DNA from: a virus
Length of the DNA stretch: 39,119 nt
Virus record (IMG/VR): IMGVR_UViG_3300042355_000402
Span: 1-39,119 of that record
Reading direction: 5' to 3' (one strand)
Under the pieces are notes generated by a model that saw only the letters and a program-made list of their open reading frames with translations, did not search any database and had not been told where the DNA came from. A program made the translations under genes and the position numbers. This document shows positions 1,683-39,119 of the stretch, one piece after another. Positions within the stretch are counted from its first letter, which is position 1; the number at the start of each line of letters is the position of its first letter.

Positions 1683-1700
1683 GATAAATCTCAGAATTGG

Positions 1701-1744
1701 TGGGGCGACGTTGCATCGGCGTGTAGTCACACCGCGCCGCCCCA
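1701..1744. other. intergenic hairpin
   Basis: TGGGGC (1701-1706) pairs with GCCCCA (1739-1744), and an inner GTGT-AGTC-ACAC hairpin sits at 1721-1732. It lies between the SSB-like gene and the Gp157 gene. There is no U-tract on either strand, so I read it as a processing or translation-control structure, not a terminator. Confidence 0.35.
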
Positions 1745-1752
1745 TTGATCGG

Positions 1753-2403: not shown

Positions 2404-2468
2404 TTTGATTCTCCTTGTAAAACCGGACTTACCGGGGCCGGATTCCCGTTAATCAATTAGTTTTGAGG

Positions 2469-2801: not shown

Positions 2802-2803
2802 AG

Positions 2804-3121
2804 CTATTTGCTCTCAATGGCAAGAAGGCTTTGAATCTGGCCTTCGATCTGGTTCAATGCGACCTCGCAATCCGCTTGCACCTTGCGCTTTGCGGCCTTG
2901 AGTATGGCTATCTGACTGCCGGTGATCTGCTCTGGATCGTCAAAAGTGACCGTGATTTCAGCCATGCCGCACTTGGTCCACCGATCAGGGAAACTGTCTC
3001 CGTGCGGCTGGTAGTAGCACAGCGTACTTACGGCGCGCTCAGGCGTCTCTTCACTCAAACTCTTGAGCGTTACGTGGGGGGCGGTCAGAAACACCGGCAC
3101 GGTTGCGGTAATCGTTTTCAT
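2804..3121 (-). CDS. hypothetical early protein
   Basis: Encodes 105 aa. The chosen ATG at 3121 makes an ATGA overlap with the stop of the 29-aa membrane gene and has GGGAG seven nt upstream; an in-frame ATG six bases earlier is possible. The N-terminal half is beta-rich (TITATVPVFLTAPHVTLKSL, AEITVTFDDPEQ) and the C-terminal half is a helix rich in Lys and Gln, ending in SLLAIESK. I do not recognise the family. Confidence 0.65.
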   Translation of the reverse strand: MKTITATVPVFLTAPHVTLKSLSEETPERAVSTLCYYQPHGDSFPDRWTKCGMAEITVTFDDPEQITGSQIAILKAAKRKVQADCEVALNQIEGQIQSLLAIESK

Positions 3122-3207
3122 AGCCATGCTCCCAATGAATCCGTGAATAGCCATGCCAATACGATCACGGTCATGACTGCGTTTGTGTAATCGCCAAGTT
3201 CGCTCAT
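3118..3207 (-). CDS. 29-aa single-pass membrane peptide
   Basis: ATG at 3207 overlaps the upstream stop (ATGA), and its own stop overlaps the next start (ATGA). Residues 10-28 are a hydrophobic stretch (AVMTVIVLAWLFTDSLGAWL) long enough to span a membrane. Double coupling supports real translation. Role unknown; small membrane peptides in early phage operons can modulate host membrane proteins or exclusion. Confidence 0.55.
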   Translation of the reverse strand: MSELGDYTNAVMTVIVLAWLFTDSLGAWL

Positions 3208-3350
3208 TTGCAAAACACCCATACCCTTCCGGCCTTCACAGCGCGCCGAATCTGCTGCCCTTGCGCATGGCAGGTATTGGCCGGCACTTGGTAATGGTTG
3301 GCGAACGTCACGCCGGAAAAACTCAGGTAGATCACGATCAGCGTACTCAT
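3204..3350 (-). CDS. 48-aa small protein
   Basis: ATG at 3350 overlaps the stop of the upstream gene, and its stop overlaps the next start, in a chain of ATGA junctions. It begins with a hydrophobic segment (STLIVIYLSFSGVTFA) and ends in a basic part (QQIRRAVKAGRVWVFCK) with two Cys. The competing longer frame on this strand (3118-3366) fits the overlap chain less well, so I prefer this one. Function unknown. Confidence 0.5.
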   Translation of the reverse strand: MSTLIVIYLSFSGVTFANHYQVPANTCHAQGQQIRRAVKAGRVWVFCK

Positions 3351-3637
3351 GCATGAAATTCTCCAAGGTGCGCCGTGGCGCTGGTAAATTCGTAGCTGTC
3401 GAGAATTCCGAAGCGGCTATTCAGTTCTCTGCGACCGGCTGCGGCGCGCTCGTTCGTTTCATTGATCGCGGCGATTTCGTTAAACACGTCTTCAAGCACA
3501 GTCGGCAGCATTTCCAGCAGGTAAAGCGCCTTGCTCATTTGCTCCGGGTAGCCTGCGTGCATGCGCTTGATTTCCGGCAAAGTAACTGCGGTTAGCAGGG
3601 AAGCAAGCTGTAACTTTTCGCTGTGGCACATAGTCAT
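3347..3637 (-). CDS. hypothetical early protein
   Basis: Encodes 96 aa, ATG at 3637 overlapping the upstream stop (ATGA). Predicted helical: SEKLQLASLLTAVTLPEIK, a middle VLEDVFNEIAAINETNERAAAGRRE helix and a short C-terminal tail. No recognised domain. Member of the leftward early operon. Confidence 0.65.
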   Translation of the reverse strand: MTMCHSEKLQLASLLTAVTLPEIKRMHAGYPEQMSKALYLLEMLPTVLEDVFNEIAAINETNERAAAGRRELNSRFGILDSYEFTSATAHLGEFHA

Positions 3638-3930
3638 GCTGCCTCCCTGTCTTCGTCGAAGTCGTTGGCGGCTCGGTCGTCAAACTCTGCTTTGATCGCC
3701 TCGATAATCGCTTCCTCGGCATCGCCAAGCAGCGGCGTGATGTCAATGCAAGCAATCTTTGCCGACACGATCGACACTTCGCTGTCACAGCCGGGGTCGT
3801 AATCTTCCGGCCTGCCGAAACGCCCCGTCTCTGGACTGCCGGCCATGTAATGCACTTCAAATTCCACGTCGCGCTCGCCAAGTTCGCCCAGGTCAAGCGT
3901 CAGTGCGATGCTGGTTGTCGGTCTTTTCAT
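3634..3930 (-). CDS. acidic early protein, first clear gene of the leftward operon
   Basis: Encodes 98 aa. I chose the ATG at 3930 because AGGAG precedes it at good spacing; the frame stays open upstream to a TTG at 4125 with much weaker support. The protein opens with a beta-rich segment (TTSIALTLDLGELGERDVEFEVHYM), followed by an acidic helical C-terminus (DAEEAIIEAIKAEFDDR). The pattern is common in small phage proteins of unknown function. Confidence 0.65.
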   Translation of the reverse strand: MKRPTTSIALTLDLGELGERDVEFEVHYMAGSPETGRFGRPEDYDPGCDSEVSIVSAKIACIDITPLLGDAEEAIIEAIKAEFDDRAANDFDEDREAA

Positions 3931-4242
3931 GGCTATCTCCTGTTGTTGGTTCCGGCCTTCCAGCCGGTCGGCAGCGTCGTGGAAGGAGTTAGCCTGTGGC
4001 GTCCTATTCGTGCGCTGCTGTGGGTATCTGCCCACCTTCACGGTTCTTTCGTCTGTGTCCGTTACGCTGGCCGATTGCTGCGCCAGTCCAGCTTGTTTGC
4101 ATCGTTGATACGCGGTGATGCTCAATGACCGCTTGTTGCTCCTGCTCCGGTGGTTCTCCTAGCCCCTCACCGTGTCGCCGATGGCATTGACGTGTATCGG
4201 AACTACTTGATGCCATTGCGGGTTTTGCCGTTGCTTGTTCGA
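3931..4242 (-). other. long leader of the leftward operon, possible gene remnant
   Basis: About 310 nt lie between the leftward promoter and the first well-supported start codon. A frame open from TTG at 4125 begins with an S-I-T-A-Y-Q-R-C-K-Q-A-G-L-like stretch, which resembles the N-terminus of small phage HTH proteins. It then loses the resemblance and runs in frame into the next gene. It may be a decayed or frameshifted regulator; I do not call it as a gene. Confidence 0.35.
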
Positions 4243-7562: not shown

Positions 7563-7885
7563 GCAAATTGACTGTGACGAGGCAATTCCGCGATGACTTC
7601 GAGATGTTCGCAGATGATCGGATTGCTACGGGGGTTTTCCTGCCGGAAGAAATCGAAGGTCTGCGAAAGTTGATCCGCATTGACCTGACACCGGGGCCGG
7701 ATCAGTTGCGCGGTGAATGCGAATACCTGAACAGCAAAGGCGTGGCGCAGCCGGCTGTGATTGATGACGAGGTGGAACGCTATCGACTGTGGGCGGCGTT
7801 CTTCGCTGACGAGTGCGAAAGCATCCGCAAGCAGCGGAGAAACAGCGCAGCCGGCATAAACGAGCGCATGAAGGTGGCAGCATGA
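7559..7885 (+). CDS. hypothetical protein of the replication operon
   Basis: Encodes 108 aa from TTG at 7559. The unusual start is supported by a strong GGAGGTG ribosome site five nt upstream and by the overlap with the helicase stop. The product is helical and acidic: VTRQFRDDFEMFADDRIATGVFLPEEIEGL, then a Trp-containing helix RYRLWAAFFADECESIRKQ. No recognised domain; possibly helicase-associated by position. Confidence 0.65.
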   Translation: MSKLTVTRQFRDDFEMFADDRIATGVFLPEEIEGLRKLIRIDLTPGPDQLRGECEYLNSKGVAQPAVIDDEVERYRLWAAFFADECESIRKQRRNSAAGINERMKVAA

Positions 7886-8136
7886 CCGAATCTGATATTG
7901 CGTGTTATCGGGTGAATTATGAGCAGGCAGCATGGGATCGGGCGGAAGCAGAGAAGGGGTTTTTTTGCGCACCGATTGGCGCTGTTCATGCGGTTAATGC
8001 GCTGTGCGATGAGGTAGAGCGGCTACGGGCGGCGATTATTCAGACGCTCAACGAAAACGGGCATCTTGCCGATGGCGACAACTGCACGCTGATTGCTCTG
8101 AAACGCGCAATGCCTGATTGGGAGTTGCCGGAATGA
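7882..8136 (+). CDS. small phage protein
   Basis: Encodes 84 aa with ATGA overlaps at both ends. A helical ACYRVNYEQAAWDRAEAEKGF segment is followed by a leucine-rich coiled region ALCDEVERLRAAIIQTLNENG, a pattern frequent in small phage proteins of nin-type regions. Function unknown. Confidence 0.65.
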   Translation: MTESDIACYRVNYEQAAWDRAEAEKGFFCAPIGAVHAVNALCDEVERLRAAIIQTLNENGHLADGDNCTLIALKRAMPDWELPE

Positions 8137-8603
8137 CCGACAAGCTAACAATTCGCCTATGGGAGCCGACACAAGCGCACGCCGCACTGGCCGAGGCTTG
8201 GCGGCACGTCAAGCAATGGATACTCGCCGGCCATCGCCTGATTCTGGAAATTCGCCCGGAGACGCGCAGCGACCGGCAGAACAAGCTGTTGCACGCGCTG
8301 TTTGGCGACGTCTCGAAGCAATCCGAGTGGATGGGCAAGCGGCGCACGCCGGCTGAGTGGAAGGTGCTATTCATCAGCGGCCATGCTGTCATCACGAAGT
8401 CTGGCGCCGAACTATTGCCGGGGCTGGAGGGCGAATTCGTCAATATCCGCGAGTCGTCGGCAAAGATGGGCATCAGGCGCATGAACAGCTTGATTGAGTA
8501 CGTGATGGCCTACGCGGTAAGCAATGGCGTCGAGTTGCGCGAGTCTAAGCAGTGGATGGAAGTCGATCAGGAAACCGGGGAAATTTTGGAGAGGGCGGCA
8601 TGA
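8133..8603 (+). CDS. ninB: NinB-like recombination protein
   Basis: Encodes 156 aa. The segments ILEIRPETRSDRQNKLLHALFGDVSKQ, TPAEWKVLFISGHAV and SLIEYVMAYAVSNGVEL are those of the NinB/Orf family (lambda Orf). Orf is a dimeric ssDNA-binding recombination mediator that helps load recombinases in place of host RecFOR. The length is close to the family norm (about 146-160 aa). It is directly followed by NinG, as in lambda. ATGA overlaps on both sides. Confidence 0.88.
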   Translation: MTDKLTIRLWEPTQAHAALAEAWRHVKQWILAGHRLILEIRPETRSDRQNKLLHALFGDVSKQSEWMGKRRTPAEWKVLFISGHAVITKSGAELLPGLEGEFVNIRESSAKMGIRRMNSLIEYVMAYAVSNGVELRESKQWMEVDQETGEILERAA

Positions 8604-9193
8604 TCATTCCGTCCGCCAAGACCAGAATCATCAAGGTCAAACGCTGCAAGGCGATGGGATGCGATAACGATTTTATGCCGTTGCGCCCGATGCAGCGTGC
8701 GTGCTGTCCGACTTGTGCGCTGGCAATCGTAGCCGCTGCGAACGCCAAGAAGGCGCTGGCCGCAGCCAAGCAGGACAGGAAAGAGACGAAGGCCAAACTG
8801 GAAAAGTTCAAGAGCCGCACCGACCACGCCAACGACACCCAAAAGGTGTTCAACGCTCTACGCCGCGAGCAGTGCCTGGCGCTCGGGATGGGCTGCATAT
8901 CATGCGATACGCACAAAGCGCTCCAGTTCCACGCAGGACACTACCAGAACGTCAAGACACACAAGGCGCTGCGCTTCCACCCGGAAAATGTTTGGCTTCA
9001 GTGTTCCCAGTGCAACAGCGACGAAGGCGGCAACAAGATCGAGTACCGCAAGCGGCTGGTCAATCTGATCGGCGTTGAAAAGGTCGAGTGGCTTGAGTCT
9101 GGTCATGAGGCCAAGCGATGGGAGATTGATGAGCTTAAGGCGTTGAAGTCTGAATTCGCAAAACAACTCAGGGAGCTACGCAATGGCAATTGA
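8600..9193 (+). CDS. ninG: NinG/Rap-like recombination nuclease
   Basis: Encodes 197 aa. An N-terminal zinc module has CKAMGC and CCPTC cysteines (residues 12-36). A basic coiled-coil helix of Lys/Ala follows, and then the C-terminal core with CISC, FHAGHYQN and WLQCSQCNSDEGGN. That core is the HNH-like zinc fold of NinG (lambda Rap), a structure-specific nuclease acting on recombination intermediates. Full family length. The start ATG overlaps the NinB stop. Confidence 0.9.
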   Translation: MIIPSAKTRIIKVKRCKAMGCDNDFMPLRPMQRACCPTCALAIVAAANAKKALAAAKQDRKETKAKLEKFKSRTDHANDTQKVFNALRREQCLALGMGCISCDTHKALQFHAGHYQNVKTHKALRFHPENVWLQCSQCNSDEGGNKIEYRKRLVNLIGVEKVEWLESGHEAKRWEIDELKALKSEFAKQLRELRNGN

Positions 9194-11234: not shown

Positions 11235-11489
11235 ATGGCAGCACGAAAAAACAAACCGCTACACGACGACAAAACCAAAGAACGCATCAGGGCGAGTCAG
11301 CTGCTTAACCGGCTGAATTCCTTTGCTATTGGTGAAATCGAGATGACAGCCGCTCAAGTCAATGCCGCAAAGATCGTGATAGGCAAGGTTGTGCCGGATT
11401 TGAAGTCTGTCGAACTAGCAAACAGGGACGGCGAGGAACTAAAAACCGTTTCGCGCATCGTTAGAGAAATTGTCGATCCTGCGCATTGA
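11235..11489 (+). CDS. terS: terminase small subunit (putative)
   Basis: Encodes 84 aa with GGGAG before ATG. It has a basic N-terminus (AARKNKPLHDDKTKERIRASQLLNRL) that could bind DNA, then a MTAAQVNAAKIVIGKVVPDLKSVEL helix segment typical of short phage proteins annotated as small terminase subunits. The gene overlaps the large subunit by 20 nt. It should recognise the packaging site and recruit TerL. The length is short for a TerS, so the assignment rests largely on position and the helix signature. Confidence 0.65.
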   Translation: MAARKNKPLHDDKTKERIRASQLLNRLNSFAIGEIEMTAAQVNAAKIVIGKVVPDLKSVELANRDGEELKTVSRIVREIVDPAH

Positions 11490-12687
11490 GACGCCGCGCG
11501 CCTTTGTCCCGCTGCTGCAAGATGCGCGGTATAAGGGCGCACACGGCGGACGAGGTAGCGGCAAGTCACACTTTTTTGCTGAGGCCCTGGTAGAGCGCTG
11601 TCTGATCAATCCCGGAACGCGCTGGGCTTGTATTCGAGAGGTGCAGAAATCGCTTGAGCAGTCAGTTAAGCGGCTGCTGGAAGACAAGATTGAGTCGCTT
11701 GGTGTTGGCGCACAGTTCGTCGTCAAACAATTCGAGATTGAGACGCCAGGCGGTGGTCTGATCATCTTTCAGGGGATGCAGAACCACACGGCGGACAGTA
11801 TCAAGTCGCTCGAAGGCTTTGACGGCGCATGGGTAGAAGAAGCGCAGAGTTTGAGCCAGCGCAGCCTTGATCTGCTTAGACCGACGATCCGCAAAGAGAG
11901 TAGCGAATTGTGGTTTAGCTGGAACCCGTCGATGGATACTGATCCGGTAGATGTGCTGTTGCGCGGTGAGCAGTTGCCGCCCGGCGCCGTTGTCGTTCAG
12001 GCAAACTATCGTGACAATCCGTGGCTGCCTCAAGTGTTGCGCGATGAACTTGAATACGATCAGCGTCGCGACCCGGACAAGTTCGCGCACGTCTGGCTCG
12101 GAGAGTATCAGCGCAACAGTCAGTCGCGGGTGTTCCGCAACTGGATCATTGAGGACTTCGAGACACCGAAGGGCGCAACGCACTACCAAGGCGCGGATTG
12201 GGGCTTCTCGGTCGATCCTTCGTGCCTGATCCGTTGCCACATTGACGGCAGACGGCTGTATATCGACCATGAGGCGTATATGGTCGGCTGCGAGATTGAC
12301 AACCTGCCGCACCTGTTCCGGCAAGTGCCAGAGTCTGAAAAGTGGTGGATTACTGCCGACTCAGCCAGGCCTGAAACGATTGATTACATGCAGCGTCATG
12401 GCTACCCGCGCATTGTGCCGGCGACCAAGGGCGCGAAGTCAGTGGAAGAAGGCATTCAGTTCCTGCAGTCCTACGACATCGTTGTGCATCCGCGCTGTAA
12501 GCATGTGATCGACGAACTGACGCTGTACAGCTACAAGACTGACCCGCTGACCGGGCAGATACTGCCGATCCTGCAGGACAAGAATAACCACATGATCGAC
12601 AGCCTCCGTTATGCCTGCGAAGGCGTGCGCAAGGCTGGGCCGGCCAAGTGGGAACCGATCAAATATCAGAACGCAGGCATTGTATGA
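11470..12687 (+). CDS. terL: terminase large subunit
   Basis: Encodes 405 aa from TTG at 11470, the first possible start giving the conserved RYKGAHGGRGSGKS region. Walker A is GGRGSGKS at 26-33 and Walker B plus catalytic Glu is WVEEA at 121-125. The nuclease carboxylates are Asp243 (GADWGFSVDPS), Asp297 (ITADSARPE) and Asp377 (HMIDSLRYA). This is the two-domain motor-nuclease of the Terminase_3 type that cuts concatemers and drives DNA into the prohead. TTG start and TerS overlap suggest coupled translation. Stop overlaps the next ATG. Confidence 0.93.
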   Translation: MSILRIETPRAFVPLLQDARYKGAHGGRGSGKSHFFAEALVERCLINPGTRWACIREVQKSLEQSVKRLLEDKIESLGVGAQFVVKQFEIETPGGGLIIFQGMQNHTADSIKSLEGFDGAWVEEAQSLSQRSLDLLRPTIRKESSELWFSWNPSMDTDPVDVLLRGEQLPPGAVVVQANYRDNPWLPQVLRDELEYDQRRDPDKFAHVWLGEYQRNSQSRVFRNWIIEDFETPKGATHYQGADWGFSVDPSCLIRCHIDGRRLYIDHEAYMVGCEIDNLPHLFRQVPESEKWWITADSARPETIDYMQRHGYPRIVPATKGAKSVEEGIQFLQSYDIVVHPRCKHVIDELTLYSYKTDPLTGQILPILQDKNNHMIDSLRYACEGVRKAGPAKWEPIKYQNAGIV

Positions 12688-12866
12688 GCGATTCGTTAAT
12701 TGCTCGCGTCCGCAAGATGGAAGCGCGGATTGTTGAGCTTGAAAAGCAGTTCATCGAATTGCTATCAGACAAGAAAGAACCTCTCCATGGCACGATCAGA
12801 GTTAAGCGACGCGGAAATACTGGCGAAGATTCAAGCCGAGGAAACGCAAGCGTACGGCCTGAATGA
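12684..12866 (+). CDS. small coiled-coil protein overlapping the portal start
   Basis: ATG at 12684 overlaps the terL stop (ATGA). The first 32 residues (SLIARVRKMEARIVELEKQF) are a leucine-zipper-like helix, and the last 27 are encoded in the overlap with the portal gene in another frame. Small coiled-coil genes between terL and portal occur in related podoviruses. Moderately supported. Confidence 0.5.
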   Translation: MSDSLIARVRKMEARIVELEKQFIELLSDKKEPLHGTIRVKRRGNTGEDSSRGNASVRPE

Positions 12867-14997
12867 TTCGGAACTGTCCGGGGATCGCGCCAAGTCAATT
12901 GATTACTACCTCGGCAAGCCATTTGGTAACGAGGTCGATGGCCGCTCGCAGGTTGTCAGCACCGATGTAGCCGATACGATTGAATCGCTGCTACCGGCGC
13001 TGCTGAAAGTATTCGTTTCCGGTGATGAAGTCGTTAAGTTCGACCCGAAAGGACCGGAAGACATCGACAAGGCCGAGCAGGAAACGGCGGCGATCAATTA
13101 CCTCGTGATGGAGAAGAACAGCGGCTTTCAGATCTTTTACACTTGGTTCAAGGATGCGCTGCTTTCCAAGAATGGCTACATCAAGGTCTATTGGGAAGAG
13201 TACGAGAACATCGAGAAGGAAAGCTATCAAGGGCTGACCGACGACGAATTCGCCATGCTCATGCAGAACGACGTTGAACTGCTGGAGCACACCGAAACAC
13301 CGGACGAGATTGATCAGCAGCAGCGTATGCAGGCGATTGCGCAGAACCCGCAATCCGCGCAATATATCATGGGTCAGCCGCCGAAGATGCTGCACGACGT
13401 GAAGGTGCAGACTACCAAGACAGAAGGCCGCATCTGTATCGAGAACGTCGCACCAGAGTCGATCATGGTGTCAGTCGATACCAAGGCCGTCTCGCTGCAG
13501 CAGGCCCGCTTCGTGCAGCACCGCGAGATGACGACGGTTGCCGAGTTGGAAGATCGCGGCTTCGACGTACCGGAGAACATAGCCGACGACTACACGGATC
13601 AGTTCGAGCAAGAACAGATTGCCCGCGACCTGTACAACGAGCAGGACGACCGCAACGCAGGCTCAGGGATTGACCGGCGCATTCTGGTCAAGGACACCTA
13701 TTTGGTGTGCCACGGCCAATTAATGCGCTATGTGGTTGTCGGTCAGACGATCCTGCTGGCGGAAGAGGCTGAGATTATCCCGTTCGCTGCAATTACGCCG
13801 GTCATCATGCCGCATCGCCATGTGGGCCGCTCGGTGGCTGATCTGGTGATGGATATTCAACTGATCAAATCGACGTTGTTGCGCGGTCAGTTGGACGGGC
13901 TGTATTTGAGCCTGAATCCTCGCCACGGCATCACGGACAAAGTGAATCTTGACGATTTCCTTGTCTCGCGCCCGGGTGGTGTGGTTCGCGTCAATGGCTC
14001 GCCGCTGGAGAACATCATGCCGCTGATCACGCCGGACGTTTCCGGTACAGCGTTTCCCATGATGGAGTACATGGACGGCATCAAGGAAAACCGCACCGGC
14101 ATCACCAAATACAATCAAGGCATTGACGCCAACAGTCTGAACAAGACCGCCTCCGGTATCTCGCAGATCATGGGCGCGGCGCAGCAACGCACCGAGCTGA
14201 TTGCGCGCATCTTTGCTGAGGGTGGTGTAAAAGAATTGTTCATGCTGGTTCATCGCCTGATGCGCACGCACAGCCAGCGCGAACTGATCCTGCGCCTGCG
14301 TAACAAGTGGGTAGCGGTCGATCCTCGGCAGTGGAAAACACGCACTGACCTGTCCGTATCGGTCGGCCTCGGCACCGGCAACAAAGACCAGATGTTGGGG
14401 CACTTGATGACCATCCTGCAGGCGCAGAAGGAAGGCGTGCAGATAGGTTTGGCGACGCCGAAGAACATTTACAACGCACTCGCCAAACTGACGCAGAACG
14501 CCGGATTCAAGAACCCTGAGGAATTCTGGACTGACCCGGAAGGCGTCGAGCAGAAGCCGAAGGAAGAACCGCAGCCGACGCCGGATGCTGTCCTTTACTC
14601 GCAGACCGAACTGCAAAAGGCGCAGATCAAGGCCGCATCCGACGAGAAGATTGCTGCGCAGAAAGCGTCTTTCGACTACCAAACGAAGATCGAGATTGCC
14701 CAGCTCAATCAGCAGACCGAAGCGGCAAAGATGCACACGACAGACGTTGCAAAACAGCGCGACTACACAATGGACGGCATCAAGCTGCTGGCTGATCAAC
14801 TGACCGCCGAACGCACGCCTGAGCCGGTTGCCGAGGTGGTCGAAGAGCCGGTCGAGGAAAAACCCGATCAGATGCACATGGCAATGCTGCAGGCCATTGA
14901 AATGATGGCGCAGGCTATTTCGCGCATGAACGCGCCGAAGCAGATTGTCCGTGACCAGAGTGGGCGAGCAGTCGGCGTGCAATCGGTGGAATCGTAA
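12787..14997 (+). CDS. portal protein, P22-like
   Basis: Encodes 736 aa; I chose ATG at 12787 (MARSELSDAEILAKI), the start that fits family members. Features include EETQAYGLNDSEL, GRSQVVSTDVADTIESLLPALLKVF near the N-terminus, and the stem/wing part GISQIMGAAQQRTELIARIFAEGGVKELF around residues 455-485. A long Gln/Lys-rich helical barrel region runs at about 600-700. It forms the dodecameric ring at the unique vertex through which DNA passes. Length and the C-terminal barrel-like helix match P22-type portals. Stop overlaps the next start (TAATG). Confidence 0.9.
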   Translation: MARSELSDAEILAKIQAEETQAYGLNDSELSGDRAKSIDYYLGKPFGNEVDGRSQVVSTDVADTIESLLPALLKVFVSGDEVVKFDPKGPEDIDKAEQETAAINYLVMEKNSGFQIFYTWFKDALLSKNGYIKVYWEEYENIEKESYQGLTDDEFAMLMQNDVELLEHTETPDEIDQQQRMQAIAQNPQSAQYIMGQPPKMLHDVKVQTTKTEGRICIENVAPESIMVSVDTKAVSLQQARFVQHREMTTVAELEDRGFDVPENIADDYTDQFEQEQIARDLYNEQDDRNAGSGIDRRILVKDTYLVCHGQLMRYVVVGQTILLAEEAEIIPFAAITPVIMPHRHVGRSVADLVMDIQLIKSTLLRGQLDGLYLSLNPRHGITDKVNLDDFLVSRPGGVVRVNGSPLENIMPLITPDVSGTAFPMMEYMDGIKENRTGITKYNQGIDANSLNKTASGISQIMGAAQQRTELIARIFAEGGVKELFMLVHRLMRTHSQRELILRLRNKWVAVDPRQWKTRTDLSVSVGLGTGNKDQMLGHLMTILQAQKEGVQIGLATPKNIYNALAKLTQNAGFKNPEEFWTDPEGVEQKPKEEPQPTPDAVLYSQTELQKAQIKAASDEKIAAQKASFDYQTKIEIAQLNQQTEAAKMHTTDVAKQRDYTMDGIKLLADQLTAERTPEPVAEVVEEPVEEKPDQMHMAMLQAIEMMAQAISRMNAPKQIVRDQSGRAVGVQSVES

Positions 14998-18584: not shown

Positions 18585-19535
18585 ATGGCTGTATCCGCAA
18601 CCAATACCTACACCGCCGCCGGCCTTGCCGAAGATTTTGAAGACATCATCAACAACGTCTCGCCGTCCGACACGCCGCTCTATACGCTCGCCAAGAAGAA
18701 GAAGGCAACCGGCAAATATCACCAATGGCAAGTCGAATCGCTGGCTGCTGCTGCTGCCAACAAGCAGCTTGAAGGTGACGACGCTTCATACGCGACGCTG
18801 ACCGCGACGACCGTACTCGGCAACTATTGCCAGATCGCTCGTAAGACGGTGCAGATTTCCGGCACTTACGATGCAGTCAAGAAGTATGGCCGCAAATCAG
18901 AACTTGCTCATCAACTGGTCAAGGTCGGCAAGGAACTGCGCCGCGATATTGAATACGCGCTGGTACGCAATGCCGCATCGGATGACGGATCGGCTGGCAC
19001 GGCTCGCGGTTCGGCTGGCTTTGAATCGTGGATCAAGGGCAACAACATCAAGTCGAACACTGGTCAAACGACTCCGGGATTCTCCGCCGGTATCGTCGCT
19101 GCCCCGACCGATGGCACGGCAACGACGTTCCTCGAAGCTGACCTGAAGCTGGCGCTGGCTGCTGCATGGGCTGATGGCGGAGACCCTTCTGTGATCATGA
19201 TGTCCACCACCAACAAAACCCGTTTCGACGCCTTCACCGGTATCGCGACCAAGTACAACGAGGTCAAAGGTTCGACGCAAGCCACTACCATTTCGGCGGC
19301 TGATGTCTATGTCTCCAGCTTCGGTAATCACAAGGTCGTGCTCAACCGCTACATGCGCGATAACGCCGTGTTGTGTATCGACCCGGATTACGTGTCGGTG
19401 GCATCGCTGCGCCCGATCCAGCAGGAGCCGCTTGCGAAGACCGGCGACAGTGAGAAACGCATGATGCTCGCAGAATTCTGCTTGGTTGTGGATAGCCTTG
19501 ATGCGCATGCCAAAATCTCGGGCATCGGGTCGTAG
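18585..19535 (+). CDS. major capsid protein, SU10-type (DUF5309)
   Basis: Encodes 316 aa with AAGGAG at ideal spacing. Signature segments are NTYTAAGLAEDFEDIINNVSP near the start, YCQIARKTVQISGTYDAVKKYG at about 80-105, LRRDIEYALVRNAASDDG and ADVYVSSFGNHKVVLNRYMRD near 230-255. These are the features of the SU10 major head protein family (HK97 fold). It forms the icosahedral shell. A terminator follows, as is common behind a highly expressed capsid gene. Confidence 0.92.
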   Translation: MAVSATNTYTAAGLAEDFEDIINNVSPSDTPLYTLAKKKKATGKYHQWQVESLAAAAANKQLEGDDASYATLTATTVLGNYCQIARKTVQISGTYDAVKKYGRKSELAHQLVKVGKELRRDIEYALVRNAASDDGSAGTARGSAGFESWIKGNNIKSNTGQTTPGFSAGIVAAPTDGTATTFLEADLKLALAAAWADGGDPSVIMMSTTNKTRFDAFTGIATKYNEVKGSTQATTISAADVYVSSFGNHKVVLNRYMRDNAVLCIDPDYVSVASLRPIQQEPLAKTGDSEKRMMLAEFCLVVDSLDAHAKISGIGS

Positions 19536-34419: not shown

Positions 34420-34757
34420 CGCTCGGACAAAAGCAGCGCGCCTTTACATTGATGGTCGCCAAGCTTGTCATTTACGCCTACGAGCACGGATACGAACTGA
34501 CGTTCGGCGATGCGTACCGCGACCCGAGAGTTCACGGCTCTGTTGGGGTGGCGAAAGCCGGAGCATATGGCAGGCCGTGGTCTGTTCACAAAGAGCGGCT
34601 GGCGGTCGATTTCAACCTATTCAAAGACGGCCAGTATCTGACCGCATCCGAGGATTACACTCAGCTTGGCGAGTTTTGGGAATCCATCGGCGGCGCATGG
34701 GGTGGACGTTTCGGCGACGGAAATCATTTTTCTATAGAGCACGATGGGCGCAAATGA
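34413..34757 (+). CDS. endolysin, M15 family peptidase
   Basis: Encodes 114 aa with AAGGA eight nt upstream. The zinc site is visible: S-V-H-K-E-R-L-A-V-D (His59, Asp66) and G-D-G-N-H-F (His105), as in M15 L-alanyl-D-glutamate or D,D/D,L-peptidases; FTLMVAKLVIYAYEHGYELTFGDAYRDPRVHG is the usual N-terminal part. It cuts peptide bridges of peptidoglycan to release progeny. No signal peptide is seen, so it probably depends on the holin. Confidence 0.9.
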   Translation: MVTLGQKQRAFTLMVAKLVIYAYEHGYELTFGDAYRDPRVHGSVGVAKAGAYGRPWSVHKERLAVDFNLFKDGQYLTASEDYTQLGEFWESIGGAWGGRFGDGNHFSIEHDGRK

Positions 34758-35173
34758 ATTTCAACACCATCCCCGCAATGACTCCGATTGAGGACGGCGA
34801 ATGGCGTCTGGAATCCCCTGCGATCTACGCGACACGCGCCGGAGAAATCATCGTAGCGCCGGCTGGCTTCATCACCGACCTCGCGTCGATTCCGAGAATT
34901 TTTCACGCACTGATCCCGGTCAATGGCCGGCATCGTTTGGCAGCGATTGTGCATGATTACCTGTTCGTGATTCAAGACCGCCCACGGGCTGACGTCGACA
35001 ATATTTTCCTTGAGGCGATGGAGGATAGCGGGGTGGGCTGGGTGACGCGCTGGGCGATGTATCTCGCCGTGCGTGCCGGTGGTTGGCTGCCGTGGGGAAA
35101 AAACGAACGCGCCATCGCGGGAAACCGTGCGAAATACTTTGCAGAAAATGGGCTGGTGATTGAGAGGAAATAA
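34754..35173 (+). CDS. DUF1353 family protein
   Basis: Encodes 139 aa; ATG at 34754 overlaps the endolysin stop (ATGA). The motif F-I-T-D-L-A-S-I-P-R-I-F at about 39-50 and the histidine segment RLAAIVHDYLFVIQ...RADVDNIFLEAMEDSGVGW are diagnostic of DUF1353, common in phage lysis or tail ends. Function is unknown; conserved His/Asp residues suggest a metal-dependent enzyme. Confidence 0.88.
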   Translation: MNFNTIPAMTPIEDGEWRLESPAIYATRAGEIIVAPAGFITDLASIPRIFHALIPVNGRHRLAAIVHDYLFVIQDRPRADVDNIFLEAMEDSGVGWVTRWAMYLAVRAGGWLPWGKNERAIAGNRAKYFAENGLVIERK

Positions 35174-35223
35174 TGGGCTTACTTGATTTTCTACCCTACG
35201 CGGCAGAACATAAAACGCTATGA
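35173..35223 (+). pseudogene. truncated gene remnant after DUF1353
   Basis: ATG overlaps the DUF1353 stop (TAATG) and opens a frame beginning GLLDFLPYAAEHKTL, then stops after 16 residues. MGLLDFLP-type starts are found in phage lysis-region proteins, so this looks like the head of a gene cut off next to the accessory block. It may be what is left of a spanin or similar gene. Confidence 0.4.
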
Positions 35224-35228
35224 CTAAA

Positions 35229-35345
35229 CTATGACACGGGTTTTGCGTTGCCGGCATACTGCGCGACGTGACCGACTGATAGGTGGGAGCACACAGGCTC
35301 GAAGGCCAGCTTGACAGTGCGGTTGATCCTGTGGGATTGCATCAT
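35229..35345 (-). CDS. 38-aa small protein at the end of the leftward block
   Basis: Starts at tandem ATG-ATG (35345) with GAGAGAAG upstream and encodes a Lys/Arg-containing N-terminus then VKLAFEPVCSHLSVGHVAQY and a short basic tail. The frame and ribosome site look genuine but I do not recognise the family. An AT-rich sequence containing TATAAA lies upstream on the same strand, so it may have its own promoter. It is convergent with the late operon. Confidence 0.4.
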   Translation of the reverse strand: MMQSHRINRTVKLAFEPVCSHLSVGHVAQYAGNAKPVS

Positions 35346-35401
35346 TTCACTTCTCTCACTACTTACTACTAAAACGTTTATAAATTAGCACTTGTCGTAA
35401 T

Positions 35402-35452
35402 CCTGCCTTTGTAGGCAGGTTATCGGTCAGGCGGAATATTGGGTTATCCGCC
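35402..35452. other. two hairpins at the end of the accessory block
   Basis: CCTGCC-TTTGTA-GGCAGG (35402-35419) and GGCGGA/TCCGCC with an 11-nt loop (35430-35452). Neither has a U-tract. They lie between the last attC-like half-site (GTTAGGG at 35468-35474) and the small gene at 35229-35345. They may be transcript ends or an incomplete terminal attC. Confidence 0.4.
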
Positions 35453-35459
35453 GTGGGGT

Positions 35460-35711
35460 CTACACTACGTTAGGGGTTTCTGTTCGTGCTTCAAAAGTTG
35501 TTCGCCTCTGAATCGCCGCGTAACGCCGGAGTTCGTGGTACTCCTTGGTGCTTTCGCGCTTCGTTGGCTTCACATACCAAATCCCGCCGCCAGCCCAAAC
35601 CATGCACTCCCACACAGTCTCGTCGCGGTCAATCATGTAGTTGGTTCCAGCGCACAAACCGCCGTGCTTCAGCGCCGCGTTGAAATAGTCCAGTGCCTGT
35701 CCTTCGGTCAT
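35460..35711 (-). CDS. cassette gene 1, hypothetical
   Basis: Encodes 83 aa from ATG at 35711 with AGGGG upstream, immediately outside the attC-like site at 35718. Features GQALDYFNAALKHGGLCAGTNYMIDRDETVWECMVWAGGGIWYVKP, a compact alpha/beta protein with Cys residues that I do not recognise. It ends T-P-N-V-V, where P-N-V is encoded by the CCTAACGT core of an attC-like half-site (plus-strand GTTAGGG at 35468-35474). Confidence 0.65.
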   Translation of the reverse strand: MTEGQALDYFNAALKHGGLCAGTNYMIDRDETVWECMVWAGGGIWYVKPTKRESTKEYHELRRYAAIQRRTTFEARTETPNVV

Positions 35712-35717
35712 GGCAAC

Positions 35718-35773
35718 CCCTAACCCGTCAATCAACCCGGACAGCTTCGCTGCCGGTTATTTCTACGTTAGAA
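35718..35773 (+). other. attC-like site G (56 bp)
   Basis: Plus strand: CCCTAAC (35718-35724) at the left, GTTAGAA (35767-35773) at the right, and between them AATCAACCCGG-ACAGC-TTC-GCTG-CCGGTTATTTCTAC, a stem with one extra base on one arm. Arms, extrahelical base and cores match the secondary structure of integron attC sites. The minus-strand stop of the neighbouring gene falls in the right core. Confidence 0.75.
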
Positions 35774-35986
35774 CTCATGCTGATGTATCCAGTTCGCCAA
35801 AACATATCGTTGCTTGTCACTCAACTTTCCGCGCTCTGCAAAATACTTGCGGATGCTTTTGATAACTGCATGTCTTGCTCCTGCGGATCGCTTAAAAAGT
35901 TCCGCGTCTGTCTCGCTTAGCAGACAAAATATCTCGCCTTGTTCGCGCTCTACTTGGTCATAAGCCATGTCTGCTATGTCGCCCAT
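35768..35986 (-). CDS. cassette gene 2, small phage protein
   Basis: Encodes 72 aa from ATG at 35986 with GGAG upstream. Segments DIADMAYDQVEREQGEIFCLL, AELFKRSAGARHAVIKSIRKYFAE and LSDKQRYVLANWIHQHEF are helical and match small proteins found in many phage early regions. The function is unknown. Between two attC-like sites. Its end (CATGAGTTCTAAC) closely resembles that of the CDS at 620-826. Confidence 0.65.
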   Translation of the reverse strand: MGDIADMAYDQVEREQGEIFCLLSETDAELFKRSAGARHAVIKSIRKYFAERGKLSDKQRYVLANWIHQHEF

Positions 35987-35998
35987 ATCGTTCTCCAG

Positions 35999-36067
35999 TT
36001 CTAACCCGGCAGTCCACCTGACCTGCCGCGATAGTGCCGCGTCAGTCAGGTGACTTTTGCGTTCGGC
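35999..36067 (+). other. attC-like site F (69 bp, degenerate cores)
   Basis: TTCTAAC (35999-36005) at the left and GTTCGGC (36061-36067) at the right deviate by one base from RYYYAAC/GTTRRRY. The stem is good: CACCTGAC pairs with GTCAGGTG, with a CCGCGA/TGCCGCG inner part around a TAG loop. Likely a real but weaker or decayed site. Confidence 0.6.
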
Positions 36068-36249
36068 GTCAGTCTTGCTGTTCCCGGACGGTCTGCCGGG
36101 TACGTTCCCCATGCCGGTACAGACTGGGGCGCTTCTTTATGCATTCGATCAATTTCCACTTTCCGCCATTCGCAAACACACTTGGAGTTCTGCCAGGCTT
36201 CGCGCCTCATCGTTTCCGTGTTGTCACGCATCGTGGTTGTGATTGTCAT
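36046..36249 (-). CDS. cassette gene 3, hypothetical
   Basis: Encodes 67 aa from ATG at 36249 with GGAGAAAAGG upstream, just after attC-like site E in the direction of transcription. Begins TITTTMRDNTETMRREAWQNSKCVCEWRKVEIDRM; the last 20 residues (TYPADRPGTARLTPNAKVT) are coded by the next attC-like site, so the natural end of the protein may have been lost when joined. Unknown function. Confidence 0.55.
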   Translation of the reverse strand: MTITTTMRDNTETMRREAWQNSKCVCEWRKVEIDRMHKEAPQSVPAWGTYPADRPGTARLTPNAKVT

Positions 36250-36261
36250 GACCTTTTCTCC

Positions 36262-36355
36262 GTTTAACGTCGAACCCAGCATTCCAGCGGACGGGTTCAA
36301 GCGTGGTTTGTTTCAGCAGCCGTCTTCGCGCCCGCCTGTTAACTTCACGTTGGGC
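36262..36355 (+). other. attC-like site E (94 bp)
   Basis: GTTTAAC (36262-36268, fits RYYYAAC) at the left; GTTGGGC (36349-36355, fits GTTRRRY) at the right, preceded by CGCCTGTTAACTTCAC, the usual right arm of proteobacterial attC sites. The left arm carries GTCGAACCCAGC and GGGTTCAAG. The reverse complement encodes the end of the gene at 36313-36705 (P-N-V-K-L-T). Confidence 0.75.
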
Positions 36356-36705
36356 GTCTTGAGCAATCCGATTTCCGCAGCAGCGCGGGTGATTGCCCGA
36401 CGGGTCGCTGCGTAGGGGTCGGTGTAGTTGTCCTCGTAGTGTGTATACGTTCCATCCTTAGCCTGAGCAGAAATGTAGCTTTTGTATTCGCCTTCAACGT
36501 CTAGCATCATCCCTAGCTTCACAGCCAGCCGCAGCGCGTCACCATCGTCTTCGAGCGGGTTCCAAAGACTGTCGCCACCTTTGTCATTCTCTATGCATAA
36601 ACCGTGGGGGCCGTAGCTGTGCTGTGCAACATACTTGTCGGCTAGTCCGTGCACCTTTATCCCTGCTGCTTTCGCGGCCAGTTTAACCAGTTCTTTGTCG
36701 TTCAT
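36313..36705 (-). CDS. cassette gene 4, paralog of the junction gene
   Basis: Encodes 130 aa from ATG at 36705 with AAAGGAT upstream. Starts NDKELVKLAAKAAGIKVHGLADKY and contains DALRLAVKLGMML and the C-terminal DPYAATRRAITRAAAEIGLL, a pattern of widespread uncharacterised phage proteins. The last 15 residues (P-N-V-K-L-T-G and on) are coded by attC-like site E. Residues 11-68 are identical to the junction paralog because 156 bp of DNA are identical; the middle part (about residues 69-98) differs completely. Confidence 0.8.
   Translation of the reverse strand: MNDKELVKLAAKAAGIKVHGLADKYVAQHSYGPHGLCIENDKGGDSLWNPLEDDGDALRLAVKLGMMLDVEGEYKSYISAQAKDGTYTHYEDNYTDPYAATRRAITRAAAEIGLLKTPNVKLTGGREDGC
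36517..36672. repeat. 156-bp exact repeat, internal copy
   Basis: Identical to 38964-39119; the last 127 bases are also identical to 1-127. It encodes the conserved N-terminal half of two paralogous cassette genes. Recent duplication or gene conversion is indicated, since flanks diverge sharply (C versus T right after the repeat). Confidence 0.95.
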
Positions 36706-36726
36706 ATCAGCATCCTTTCTATGTAG

Positions 36727-37395
36727 TTACGAGCCGTCCAACCCGCCGCTCAACGCCGCTGCGCTGGACGCTGCGCGATAAAGCCGCGCAGCGCCGGTCA
36801 CCTCTACGTTAGGTGCCTTGCACTTCGCCGCCAGCGTTGCCAGCCATTTCGCCATTTCTGGCGGCGTGTGTTCTCTCTCTTCCGGCCCGAGCGGTTGCTT
36901 CCAATCCGGGTCGCCCTTGCGTATGTGCGTCCCGTCCGCCCGCCGCTTGTCCAGCCGTATCACGCAATCGCTCACGCCAAGCACCAAAGGCATGGGCGGT
37001 ATTTCTTTCGGTTCGCAGCCAACCACGTAGAGCATCGTCTTCTTCTGCGCTCTGTGGCCCCACCAAAACTGATGCACCGGCAATGTCCAGCCCCCAAATT
37101 CATCTCGCTCGCCAATCGCCGGCAGTCCTTGGTCCGGCCAAAGCTGCGAACTCTCCGGGTGTTCAAGAACCCCACCGAAGCGCCGCACCATCGCCACCGC
37201 AAACCGCGCCAGGTCTTTCTCATCGGCCCGTGGCTTCGCAAAATGCCGCAGCCTGCCCCATGCGCGGCACGGCGGGTGCGCCACTACTGGCAGTGGCCCG
37301 GCGTAGCGCCTAGCGTCCTTGGCTTCGTCCCATGGCTCAACGTTTGGCAGTCCAAAGTAGGCTCCACCGGTTTCAACGTACAGTGCTGCAAGCAT
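36727..37395 (-). CDS. cassette gene 5, phage protein of unknown function
   Basis: Encodes 222 aa with AAGGAGG upstream of ATG at 37395. The core (LAALYVETGGAYFGLPNVEPWDEAKDARRYAGPLPVVAHPPCRAWGRL, GGVLEHPESSQLWPDQGLP, GGWTLPVHQFWWGHRAQKKTMLYVVG) occurs in many phages and prophages without known function; its H-P-P-C and W-x-H motifs suggest an enzyme. Residues after about 190 (APNVEVTGAARLYRAAS and on) are coded by attC-like site D and are unlikely to be part of the original fold. Confidence 0.75.
   Translation of the reverse strand: MLAALYVETGGAYFGLPNVEPWDEAKDARRYAGPLPVVAHPPCRAWGRLRHFAKPRADEKDLARFAVAMVRRFGGVLEHPESSQLWPDQGLPAIGERDEFGGWTLPVHQFWWGHRAQKKTMLYVVGCEPKEIPPMPLVLGVSDCVIRLDKRRADGTHIRKGDPDWKQPLGPEEREHTPPEMAKWLATLAAKCKAPNVEVTGAARLYRAASSAAALSGGLDGS
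36736..36814 (+). other. attC-like site D (79 bp)
   Basis: GTCCAAC (36736-36742) at the left, GTTAGGT (36808-36814) at the right. The inner arms are GCTCAACGCCGCTGCGCTGGACG and CCGCGCAGCGCCGGTCACC, around GATAAAG. This is almost a textbook chromosomal-integron attC: both cores fit the consensus, the L boxes carry CTCAACG and GCCGGTCA, and the central stem is nearly perfect. Confidence 0.85.
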
Positions 37396-37416
37396 CTTCC
37401 CCTCCTTTCGTTAGCC

Positions 37417-37480
37417 GTCCAACTCTTCAGTCGAGCGCGACGTCCCGCAAGCGGGCCGCGCCTCACTTCGGGCGTTATGC
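37417..37480 (+). other. attC-like site C (64 bp)
   Basis: GTCCAAC (37417-37423) at the left, GTTATGC (37474-37480) at the right, central hairpin CCCGCAAGCGGG and outer arms GTCGAGCGCG/CGCGCCTCAC. The stop region of the RNA ligase gene falls in the right core (GATGCATAACG on the minus strand). Confidence 0.8.
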
Positions 37481-38110
37481 ATCGGCGAAGTCGCGGCATT
37501 TGATCTTTGCGATCAGCCGATGACCGGCGCGGGTTTTCAGTTCCGTCTTCGGGCGCGCGACGATGCCTTCCGCTTGGAAATTACCCCATGTCGAAGGAAT
37601 GCCAGCCTTGGCTCGTGCCACAGCGTCGTGCAGCGTGCCTTCTCCGATGATCGGCACAACGTCGACTCTGAGCTTTTGCGCCACGTCTTCCACGTCGACA
37701 CGCTGCAGCCACCAGTCGCCGCATTTCACGTCGAACAGTACGAAGTCTTGATCTGCCCGGTAATTGCCACCGCCTTTTTGAATCTTAGCTCCGTACCCCT
37801 CGCCGTAGAGCACAGCAGAGCCATCGGGGAAGACTTCCGCCAGCTTCGCAGCCAACGGCAGGAAACGCTCGTTCAGTCGCGTCACTAGTTGCGCAGGGAT
37901 TTGTGCGTCTTCGGTTCTGCCGCCGAAAGTCACCTTGCCCTCATTGAAGATAACTCTGATGTTGGTGCCGTCCACCTTCTCGGTAAAACCCCATTGATTG
38001 CCGGCTAGGTACTCGAATTCTGGCAGCGTCCAATCACCGACGATCAGCGTTTTGCGCTTGCTGGTCATGTCGCGCTTGAATATGCTTTGGATCTTGTGGT
38101 ATTCGCTCAC
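37475..38110 (-). CDS. cassette gene 6, Rnl2-like RNA ligase
   Basis: Encodes 211 aa from GTG at 38110 with GAGGAAG upstream. Nucleotidyltransferase motifs are in order: motif I K-V-D-G-T-N at 45-50 (Lys45 would be adenylated), YGEGYG at 102-107, FVLFDVK at 123-129 (motif IIIa-like), EGIVARP at 181-187 (motif IV) and LIAKIKCRDF at 199-208 (motif V). This is the core domain of the Rnl2/DRB0094-type RNA ligases, which seal nicks or repair cleaved RNA, for example tRNA cut by host defence nucleases. It lacks a separate C-terminal domain. Occupies one cassette between attC-like sites B and C. Confidence 0.85.
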   Translation of the reverse strand: MSEYHKIQSIFKRDMTSKRKTLIVGDWTLPEFEYLAGNQWGFTEKVDGTNIRVIFNEGKVTFGGRTEDAQIPAQLVTRLNERFLPLAAKLAEVFPDGSAVLYGEGYGAKIQKGGGNYRADQDFVLFDVKCGDWWLQRVDVEDVAQKLRVDVVPIIGEGTLHDAVARAKAGIPSTWGNFQAEGIVARPKTELKTRAGHRLIAKIKCRDFADA

Positions 38111-38131
38111 GTTGCTTCCTCTCTGTAAAAT

Positions 38132-38189
38132 GCATAACAAATCATTCAACCCGGACTGGCCGGCCAGCCGGTTAATTCAGACGTTATGT
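38132..38189 (+). other. attC-like site B (58 bp)
   Basis: GCATAAC (38132-38138) left, GTTATGT (38183-38189) right. The arms AAATCATTCAACCCGG-ACTGG and CCAG-CCGGTTAATTCAGAC enclose a CCGG loop. The arms are strikingly like those of the aadA-type attC (AATTC-N-TTCAAGCC / GGCTTAA-N-TCA). One extra A on one arm gives the polarity. Best candidate for a functional site. Confidence 0.85.
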
Positions 38190-38402
38190 TTCACGGGCCT
38201 TGTCTATCTTGGTCCGCACCCATTCAGCCCCGCCAAGCCGGGCTAGCTTCGCCCGTTGCTCTGGCGTCATCCGCAGGGAGACTGTTACCGTTTCCTCTCC
38301 CTGCTTCACGGGCTTTCGGCCTTGGCCGCGACCAGCCCCGCCACGGTTAGATTTTTGCTGTTCCGGCATGAGCCCTCCGGGGCCACCGCGCTTATTCGTC
38401 AT
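38184..38402 (-). CDS. cassette gene 7b, ribbon-helix-helix-like protein
   Basis: Encodes 72 aa. I chose ATG at 38402, overlapping the stop of the upstream gene; ATG at 38369 with GGAGGG just before it is possible. A Gly/Arg-rich linker (RGGPGG, GGAGRGQGRKPVKQ) leads to a T-V-T-V-S-L-R-M-T-P-E-Q-R-A-K-L strand-helix and a second helix (EWVRTKIDKA). This is the RHH/CopG-type DNA-binding fold. It could be the antitoxin-like repressor acting on the repeats at 38643-38703. The stop lies in attC-like site B. Confidence 0.7.
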   Translation of the reverse strand: MTNKRGGPGGLMPEQQKSNRGGAGRGQGRKPVKQGEETVTVSLRMTPEQRAKLARLGGAEWVRTKIDKARET

Positions 38403-38601
38403 CTTGTTGATAAATTCCGGCGAGGGTATCGGCAATTTCGTTGCGCGTTGCTTTGCGAGAAACGAATGTATTACCGTCGCGCACCCATGCATCACCGCGT
38501 TTTTCGTAGCGCACCCACTCACGGGCAGGCTCGTTGTTCCAATGAACATCGCTGCCTGGCGTGTATTTGAAATTACCGCGCTTAAATTCTTGACTGGCCA
38601 T
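38392..38601 (-). CDS. cassette gene 7a, partner of the RHH protein
   Basis: Encodes 69 aa with GAGGAGATTC upstream. Sequence SQEFKRGNFKYTPGSDVHWNNEPAREWVRYEKRGDAWVRDGNTFVSR is beta-rich and aromatic, then a helical ATRNEIADTLAGIYQQ tail. I do not recognise the family. Overlapping translation with an RHH protein and its own promoter suggest a toxin-antitoxin or autoregulated pair; which part would be toxic is not clear. Confidence 0.6.
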   Translation of the reverse strand: MASQEFKRGNFKYTPGSDVHWNNEPAREWVRYEKRGDAWVRDGNTFVSRKATRNEIADTLAGIYQQDDE

Positions 38602-38642
38602 TTTGAATCTCCTCGGGTTTTGGTTGGCACCGCGCCTTCCAT

Positions 38643-38703
38643 GTTTGTTATTGTAGCGCGTTATCAAACATAGTCAAGGTTTATTTTGTGGTGCGCTATC
38701 AAA
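38643..38703 (-). promoter_or_regulatory. cassette promoter with two operator repeats
   Basis: On the minus strand TTGACT (38677-38672), 16 bp, TACAAT (38655-38650): a good promoter, with start near 38643. Two imperfect direct repeats of about 25 bp, both containing GCG-C/T-TATCAAA on the plus strand, lie at 38643-38668 and 38679-38703, over and upstream of it. This is a typical autoregulatory operator layout. Confidence 0.65.
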
Positions 38704-38712
38704 TAAACAGGA

Positions 38713-38799
38713 GCCTAACCCGGCGTTCAACCCCGTTCGCTTCGCTCTCTGGACGCCCCGCGATAAAGCTGCGGGTCGCCGGTCAGCTACACGTTATGC
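38713..38799 (+). other. attC-like site A (87 bp)
   Basis: GCCTAAC (38713-38719) left, GTTATGC (38793-38799) right. Left arm CCGGCGTTCAACCCCG; right arm GCGGGTCGCCGGTCAG; central part has TTCGCTTCGCT and GATAAAGC. Same architecture as site D. The stop codon of the junction gene overlaps its right end. Confidence 0.82.
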
Positions 38800-39119
38800 G
38801 TCTTGAGCTTTCCCATAGCAGCCGCAGCGCGCACGATTGCTCGACGGGTGGCTGCGTAAGGGTCAAGCTGTGCCGCTTCTTCAACTTGCTCAGGACAGTC
38901 GTCACTGTTTGAAATACCTACAACCATGATGATGCCGTCAAACAAGTCCATGCTGAGGTTCAACTTCACAGCCAGCCGCAGCGCGTCACCATCGTCTTCG
39001 AGCGGGTTCCAAAGACTGTCGCCACCTTTGTCATTCTCTATGCATAAACCGTGGGGGCCGTAGCTGTGCTGTGCAACATACTTGTCGGCTAGTCCGTGCA
39101 CCTTTATCCCTGCTGCTTT
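38787..39119 (-). CDS. C-terminal part of junction-spanning cassette gene (paralog 2)
   Basis: This is the remaining part of the gene that starts at 160 on the left edge. The reading frame stays open through the end of the window and continues into 128-160 after removing the 127-base overlap, giving 121 aa. It carries DALRLAVKLNLSMDL, a Ser/Asp/Glu-rich insert unlike the paralog, and LDPYAATRRAIVRAAAAMGKL. It ends K-T-H-N-V, where H-N-V is coded by the right core of attC-like site A. Function unknown. Confidence 0.85.
   Translation of the reverse strand, partial: KAAGIKVHGLADKYVAQHSYGPHGLCIENDKGGDSLWNPLEDDGDALRLAVKLNLSMDLFDGIIMVVGISNSDDCPEQVEEAAQLDPYAATRRAIVRAAAAMGKLKTHNV
38964..39119. repeat. 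156-bp exact repeat, end copy (includes the 127-b terminal overlap)
   Basis: Identical to 36517-36672 and, from 38993, to bases 1-127. Recombination between this copy and the internal one would release a 2,447-bp circle with the four attC-like sites D, C, B and A. Confidence 0.95.

Follow-up and report, generated by a model that had tools for sequence, protein, structure and literature searches.

The question raised by this locus is whether seven palindromic sites that separate small genes in a phage genome are genuine attC sites and, if so, whether the genes between them are exchanged as cassettes by an integron integrase that the phage itself does not encode. The stretch of DNA analyzed, here called the window, is the whole IMG/VR virus record IMGVR_UViG_3300042355_000402 (39,119 bases, entered as linear). 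An exact direct repeat of 127 bp joins the ends of the record, and the reading frame of a phrog_5086 gene continues uninterrupted across the junction; because of both features, the genome is a circle. It is complete, with a size of ~38,992 bp, and is probably circularly permuted. The right edge of the array of sites is therefore not a contig break. In addition to the genes listed below, the genome encodes ejection genes, tail genes, a DnaB/primase-helicase-like gene, NinG, and an M15 peptidase, and the phage is probably virulent and podovirus-like.

1-127 with 38993-39119: exact direct terminal repeat, circular closure
11470-12687: large terminase
12700-14997: portal
18585-19535: major head protein

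Once the circle is closed, the genes running leftward at 34724-39119 and 150-4216 make up a single block, with the attC array at its downstream end. A 156-bp segment is present in two identical copies (36517-36672 and 38964-39119). No tyrosine recombinase (PF00589), intI included, was matched across the whole, circularly closed record, which agrees with the claim of an earlier note, made from the sequence alone, that the phage carries a cluster of attC sites but no integrase gene. A search against Rfam gave zero matches in the window, and a search of INPHARED turned up no phage record of near identity.

The sites were located with a scorer that measures both attC arms and their pairing; it was trained on 28 bacterial attCs (from Sulfuricella, Azoarcus, Accumulibacter, and class 1 plasmids), none of which came from the window, and is tuned to sites of the proteobacterial type. 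It replaced a scan for pairing alone, which was too unspecific. Exactly seven attCs were detected, all on the + strand between 35718 and 38799, with scores of 37.4–52.4 (training attCs, 30–65). No other position in the rest of the 39 kb, on either strand, exceeded an arm-based score of 14, and the top score among 150 dinucleotide shuffles, searched on both strands, was 22.8.

35469-35475, + strand: isolated R' half-site GTTAGGG, left boundary of the array
35718-35773, + strand: attC1 (score 46.1; covariance model E = 4e-7)
35999-36067, + strand: attC2 (score 38.5; covariance model E = 0.0016)
36269-36355, + strand: attC3 (score 45.7; R'' = GTCGAAC)
36736-36814, + strand: attC4 (score 44.9)
37417-37480, + strand: attC5 (score 37.4)
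38132-38189, + strand: attC6 (score 52.4; covariance model E = 8e-8), closely resembling the Sulfuricella chromosomal attC at L213:5085-5151
38713-38799, + strand: attC7 (score 51.6), closely resembling the Sulfuricella chromosomal attC at L212:17263-17349

Within 823 kb of terminase-related phage loci, matches of the scorer were confined to one locus (L008). The scorer also recovers the three attCs of Tetrasphaera phage TJE1, two of them tested experimentally by Qi et al., and misses the sites of Polaribacter P12002L, as might be expected from its tuning. A covariance model was built from attC arms lacking the central stem; because it fails on sites in which this stem is long, it was used only as support. 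It is clear on sites 1, 2, and 6, weak on site 5 (E = 0.34), and misses sites 3, 4, and 7, whose central stems are long. All seven sites lie where that note had placed them, except that site 3 starts at 36269 and not at 36262. The statement that both cores of five or six sites fit RYYYAAC and GTTRRRY was too generous: a strict fit is limited to site 4, and all seven sites conform when up to one mismatch is allowed in each core. The core variants GCATAAC and GTTATGC are found also among the bacterial training sites. The asymmetric extra base that had been remarked on in the arms is indeed present, and the window sites match bacterial attC arms without gaps, the extra L'' base included. The sites of the window are confirmed as genuine attCs.

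With seven attC sites (at least two are needed) and no integron integrase in the whole record, the array meets the criteria for a CALIN. Those for a complete integron are not met, as there is no intI and the only candidate for an attI is the R' half-site at 35469. Its role is inferred, and it is possibly an attI-like or attG-like insertion point.

Each cassette consists of one small phage-type gene or gene pair:

35460-35735, − strand: cassette 1 ORF, function unknown, no match in Pfam or PHROG; the listed TTG start lies inside attC1 and the true start is probably at ~35712; the ORF ends P-N-V-V across the half-site GTTAGGG
35768-35986, − strand: cassette 2 gene, 72 aa, function unknown; GGAG ribosome site
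36046-36249, − strand: cassette 3 gene, 67 aa, function unknown; the gene extends at its 3' end through R' of attC2
36313-36705, − strand: cassette 4 gene, 130 aa, phrog_5086 (E 6e-27); C-terminus ...TPNVKLTGG through R' of attC3
36727-37395, − strand: cassette 5 gene, 222 aa, phrog_12600 (E 4e-76); C-terminus ...APNVEVTG through attC4
37475-38110, − strand: cassette 6 gene, RNA ligase (PF09414, E 6e-21; phrog_548)
38184-38402, − strand: cassette 7 gene b, 72 aa, inferred by eye to look like a small protein of the ribbon-helix-helix type
38392-38601, − strand: cassette 7 gene a, 69 aa, function unknown
38650-38677, − strand: sigma70-like promoter inside cassette 7 (TTGACT, 16 bp, TACAAT), read by eye, activity untested
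38787-39119 and on across the circle junction to ~166, − strand: second phrog_5086 gene, flanking the array, without an attC on its far side

The P-N-V termini with which genes had been said to run into the sites are borne out by cassettes 1, 4, and 5. Homologs of the phrog_12600 gene adjoin an attC in three other loci (L081, L086, and L196), and homologs of the RNA ligase are followed by an attC in four (L097, L098, L103, and L107). No attC adjoins the phrog_12600 homologs of Xanthomonas phage fSU1 and Pseudomonas phage Doze or the RNA ligase homologs of two Manatee Spring phages; both families therefore exist also outside of cassettes. Near-identical copies of the cassettes of the window were not found elsewhere, and their nearest relatives among the sequences compared share 76–83% DNA identity.

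All seven sites carry the L'' box with the extra base (TTCAA type) at their left in + orientation, which means that the attCs point along the + strand. The phrog_5086, phrog_12600, and RNA ligase genes are recognized only on the − strand, and the genes of the window are therefore antisense to attC. Read along the direction of the genes, an attC precedes the start codon, and the 3' end of the gene enters the R' core of the next site. The array meets the criterion that cassettes are gene units bounded by G^TTRRRY cores, at which blocks of identity stop in its relatives, but not the usual one of a gene sense to attC with the site at its 3' side. Because the sense layout is usual but not obligatory for integron gene cassettes, the array is described here as an antisense variant. 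The orientation of the genes relative to attC had been overlooked in the earlier note.

The same layout is seen in dozens of further viral contigs. A scan of IMG/VR with an attC core motif that carries no gene information and favors proteobacterial-type attCs yielded at least 118 new loci, of which at least 84 have more than one site. Coding strands were called with a hexamer coding score (89% correct on test genes); the length of the longest ORF was discarded as a criterion because it left GC-rich cassettes undecided. Among the matches listed, 303 of the 307 classified viral cassettes are antisense and only 4 are sense, whereas the same method applied to chromosomal integrons of Beta- and Gammaproteobacteria gave 53 sense and 5 antisense cassettes (Fisher p ~6e-53 if cassettes are treated as independent samples, which they are not). 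Also among the matches listed, 145 antisense ORFs match 68 PHROG families, whereas no family is matched by the 145 ORFs read from these cassettes in sense orientation. Most of these contigs are taken as viral on the assignment in IMG/VR; a minority were examined for hallmark genes (14 of 50 have a phrog_2 terminase, and several contigs were inspected by hand). The contents recognized in viral arrays include DNA methyltransferases, Mom-like modification, RNA ligase, queuine tRNA-ribosyltransferase, restriction-alleviation Lar, and MazG, and many gene types in these arrays are inferred to act in DNA modification or against restriction.

Evidence for cassette exchange comes both from the closer relatives of the phage and from other viral contigs. 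Three of 37 terminase-related records contain attCs. Two relatives have arrays of eight (G007) and five (G009) attCs at the corresponding place upstream of the terminase. The orientation of these arrays is that of the window, but their cassettes are different and include a methyltransferase-like gene in G007; the cassette variation that the earlier note had proposed to look for in related phages is thus present. Since these phages have diverged (70–73% terminase identity), the differences represent variation between relatives and not within a strain. Single cassettes with 90–100% identity are found in viral contigs that are otherwise unrelated, and the identity stops at the R' cores. Alignments of two pairs of loci (L249/L321 and L237/L278) each show a single cassette that is nearly identical from core to core between unrelated flanks, and one of these two cases links an intI-bearing contig (G100) with a siphovirus-like one (G072), which has genes for terminase, portal, head, and tail but in which intI was not detected. 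When non-redundant array contigs are compared, 27 of the 90 ends of blocks with 85% identity or more lie within 10 bp of an R' core, compared with 4.3% expected (p ~6e-16 if ends are independent). Such exact-ended sharing of single cassettes is the footprint expected of IntI and the strongest evidence for live arrays, and it shows that cassettes of this type move as units.

Genes for IntI were detected above the cut-off in 7 of the 72 array-bearing viral records tested (G046, G053, G060, G100, G106, G107, and G108). The array and intI of G108 are the same as those of G107, so that it was not counted separately in the tree; the gene of G106 is cut by the contig end. The IntIs of the six viral contigs and of a Sulfuricella contig (L216/L441) group together in a single clade (support 90/99; recovered in 92% of bootstrap trees), separate from 41 other integron integrases. 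The unit of array and intI adjoins a phage-type tyrosine integrase in G046, G100, G107, and the Sulfuricella contig, which is probably the edge of a prophage because chromosomal genes follow this unit; G107 also carries portal, head, tape-measure, and tail-fiber genes. As in ordinary integrons, intI is directed away from the array (in L216, G046, G053, G060, and G107), and the cassette genes are directed toward intI.

Taken together, the array is a set of seven antisense cassettes, with attC sites but without intI, that are probably gained, lost, or reordered by an IntI acting in trans, even if neither excision nor insertion has been observed in this phage. It is best read as an outlying array, itself without intI, of an integron system that resides in phages and through which accessory genes, those against restriction among them, are swapped; the acting integrase is inferred. 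The shuffling by an integrase in trans that the earlier note had suggested is thus supported by the different cassettes at the same place in related phages and the movement of cassettes as units among other viral contigs, but the likeliest helper is the phage-type IntI lineage rather than a host integron only, although a helper has not been demonstrated for the phage of the window.

Three other explanations have to be weighed. That the palindromes are ordinary terminators or intergenic repeats resembling attC is hardly credible, even though each of them forms a stem-loop between small genes and weak terminator activity has been attributed to attC sites (PMC9892861). The sites align without gaps to the arms of bacterial attCs (extra L'' base included), null scores are far below those observed, the genes read into the cores, and in relatives cassettes have been exchanged at these cores. 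The contig ends fall in a repeat that is present also at 36517-36672, which would be compatible with an assembly artefact fusing a phage with a bacterial integron. However, two copies of one repeat permit only one circular order in which no segment is skipped or repeated, the reading frame of a gene runs on through the junction, G007 and G009 carry their arrays in the same position and orientation in other records, and many other viral contigs have such arrays, which makes a fusion very improbable.

It is also unlikely, but conceivable, that the array is a passive relic of a single capture, be it from another phage or from a bacterial integron, and that it now changes only by homologous or illegitimate recombination and not by IntI. 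The record lacks intI, its 156-bp identical segments could recombine homologously, and off-target homologous recombination has been proposed as a route of entry by Qi et al. (PMC9892861). Yet all seven sites are intact, single cassettes with R'-core ends are common to viral contigs without other notable homology, and the antisense layout is unlike that of bacterial chromosomal arrays, which argues against simple capture from a host.

If the array is mobilized in trans, IntI would be supplied by a temperate phage or prophage of the phage-type lineage or by a chromosomal integron of the host. It would fold the bottom strand of attC and cut at G^TTRRRY (recombination of the bottom strand is inferred for the sites of the window, without assay data), and cutting at the cores would cause cassettes to be gained, lost, or reordered. 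The genes would be expressed by early leftward transcription or from their own promoters; a sense cassette from a bacterial integron would be silent in the leftward transcription of the phage, so that the two cassette pools could stay apart. In Vibrio cholerae, excision is strongly raised when attC bottom strands are on the lagging template (PMC11023631). Antisense genes that are co-directional with the fork would place the bottom strands there, and such arrays may be poised for shuffling; for the phage of the window this placement is a prediction because its direction of replication is unknown.

More broadly, it appears reasonably likely that there is a distinct phage-resident integron system, in which a dedicated IntI clade of temperate phages, located beside the phage integrase, is associated with a large shared pool of antisense cassettes (mainly small phage genes for DNA methyltransferases, Mom-like and other modification, restriction alleviation, and RNA ligase). 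Many arrays without intI, including that of the window, would draw on this pool in trans, and the antisense layout would separate it from bacterial cassettes by the direction of expression and put the attC bottom strand on the lagging template wherever replication runs with the genes. If this is true, phages trade accessory and counter-defense genes cassette by cassette and site-specifically, in addition to homologous and illegitimate recombination, which would explain part of the mosaicism of phages in fast-changing anti-restriction regions. Integrons would gain a second, viral gene pool, and a natural array opposite to the bacterial rule would make ideas about sense cassettes and bottom strands on the leading template directly testable.

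Whether such arrays had been described before was left undecided in the earlier note. Clusters of attC sites without intI in phages, some of them virulent, were already reported in 2023 by Qi et al., together with the recombination of phage attCs with IntI1 (PMC9892861). In the open-access literature searched, no report was found of antisense arrays in phages, of an IntI clade specific to phages, or of cassettes exchanged between phages (preprints and most subscription journals were outside the scope of the search). The CALINs of the virulent Tetrasphaera phage TJE1, Polaribacter P12002L, and Pseudoalteromonas PH101 (PMC9892861) likewise lack intI, and their cassettes include DNA methyltransferases, but the genes of TJE1 are sense to attC, whereas those in the seven-site array of the window are antisense. 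Two further differences from the published phage CALINs are seen in relatives, namely IntIs of a phage-type clade and cassettes exchanged from phage to phage. The chromosomal integrons of Beta- and Gammaproteobacteria (Sulfuricella, Azoarcus, and Accumulibacter) share the sequence and structure of attC, but their genes are sense and they have their own intI of other clades.

In the reverse integrons of Treponema, intI is transcribed toward attI (PMC3607928, PMC7691350). As in the phage relatives, intI and the cassette genes are read in one direction, but in the relatives it is the cassette genes that are flipped with respect to attC, and intI points away from the array. The array of the window, which has no intI, was therefore not identified as a Treponema reverse integron. 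The temperate Vibrio phages (Va_90-11-286_p16, PMC9892861) resemble the relatives in carrying intI on a temperate phage, but the intI and cassettes of the Vibrio phages represent part of the host's chromosomal integron, whereas the phage IntIs found here form their own clade with antisense arrays. The antisense layout, the sharing of single cassettes with R'-core ends, and the IntI clade beside antisense arrays thus go further than the work of 2023.

The two phrog_5086 genes, that of cassette 4 and the one that flanks the array, share an identical segment of 156 bp (36517-36672 = 38964-39119), outside which they have diverged (78% identity in the 3' part). Judged from the sequence, this identity would reflect recent gene conversion or duplication adjoining the array. 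A 127-bp exact direct repeat is present at both termini of the window (1-127 = 38993-39119), and the record, listed as linear in IMG/VR, appears to be a closed circle.

Homologs of phrog_12600, the gene of cassette 5, are present also in very small genomes:
L356 (Xanthomonas phage fSU1), inovirus-like phage, 11 kb
MK765587, microvirus
PP754850, Rhodobacter phage record, 6.6 kb
A check of fSU1 for attC sites found none.

In the viral contig G107 (L364:12741-16217), a helicase-like and a methyltransferase-like gene are located between the cassette array and intI, in the same reading direction. The attC sites of L134, whose contig is G058 (L233/L234), form two separate groups (45-377 and 7615-8639), which suggests two arrays in one phage. 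The IntI of L421 (G255:C24), a chromosomal integron, does not belong to the phage clade. Two cassettes of this integron are called antisense and one sense; these mixed calls are probably noise, but the case remains unresolved.

Within cassette 7, the pair of small genes is preceded by a putative strong sigma70-like promoter (38640-38710), identified by eye and accompanied by a repeated TTTGATARCGC motif. The layout resembles that of a cassette in the Sulfuricella contig (L216:60-490); the small protein of that cassette is of the GAGRKP type.
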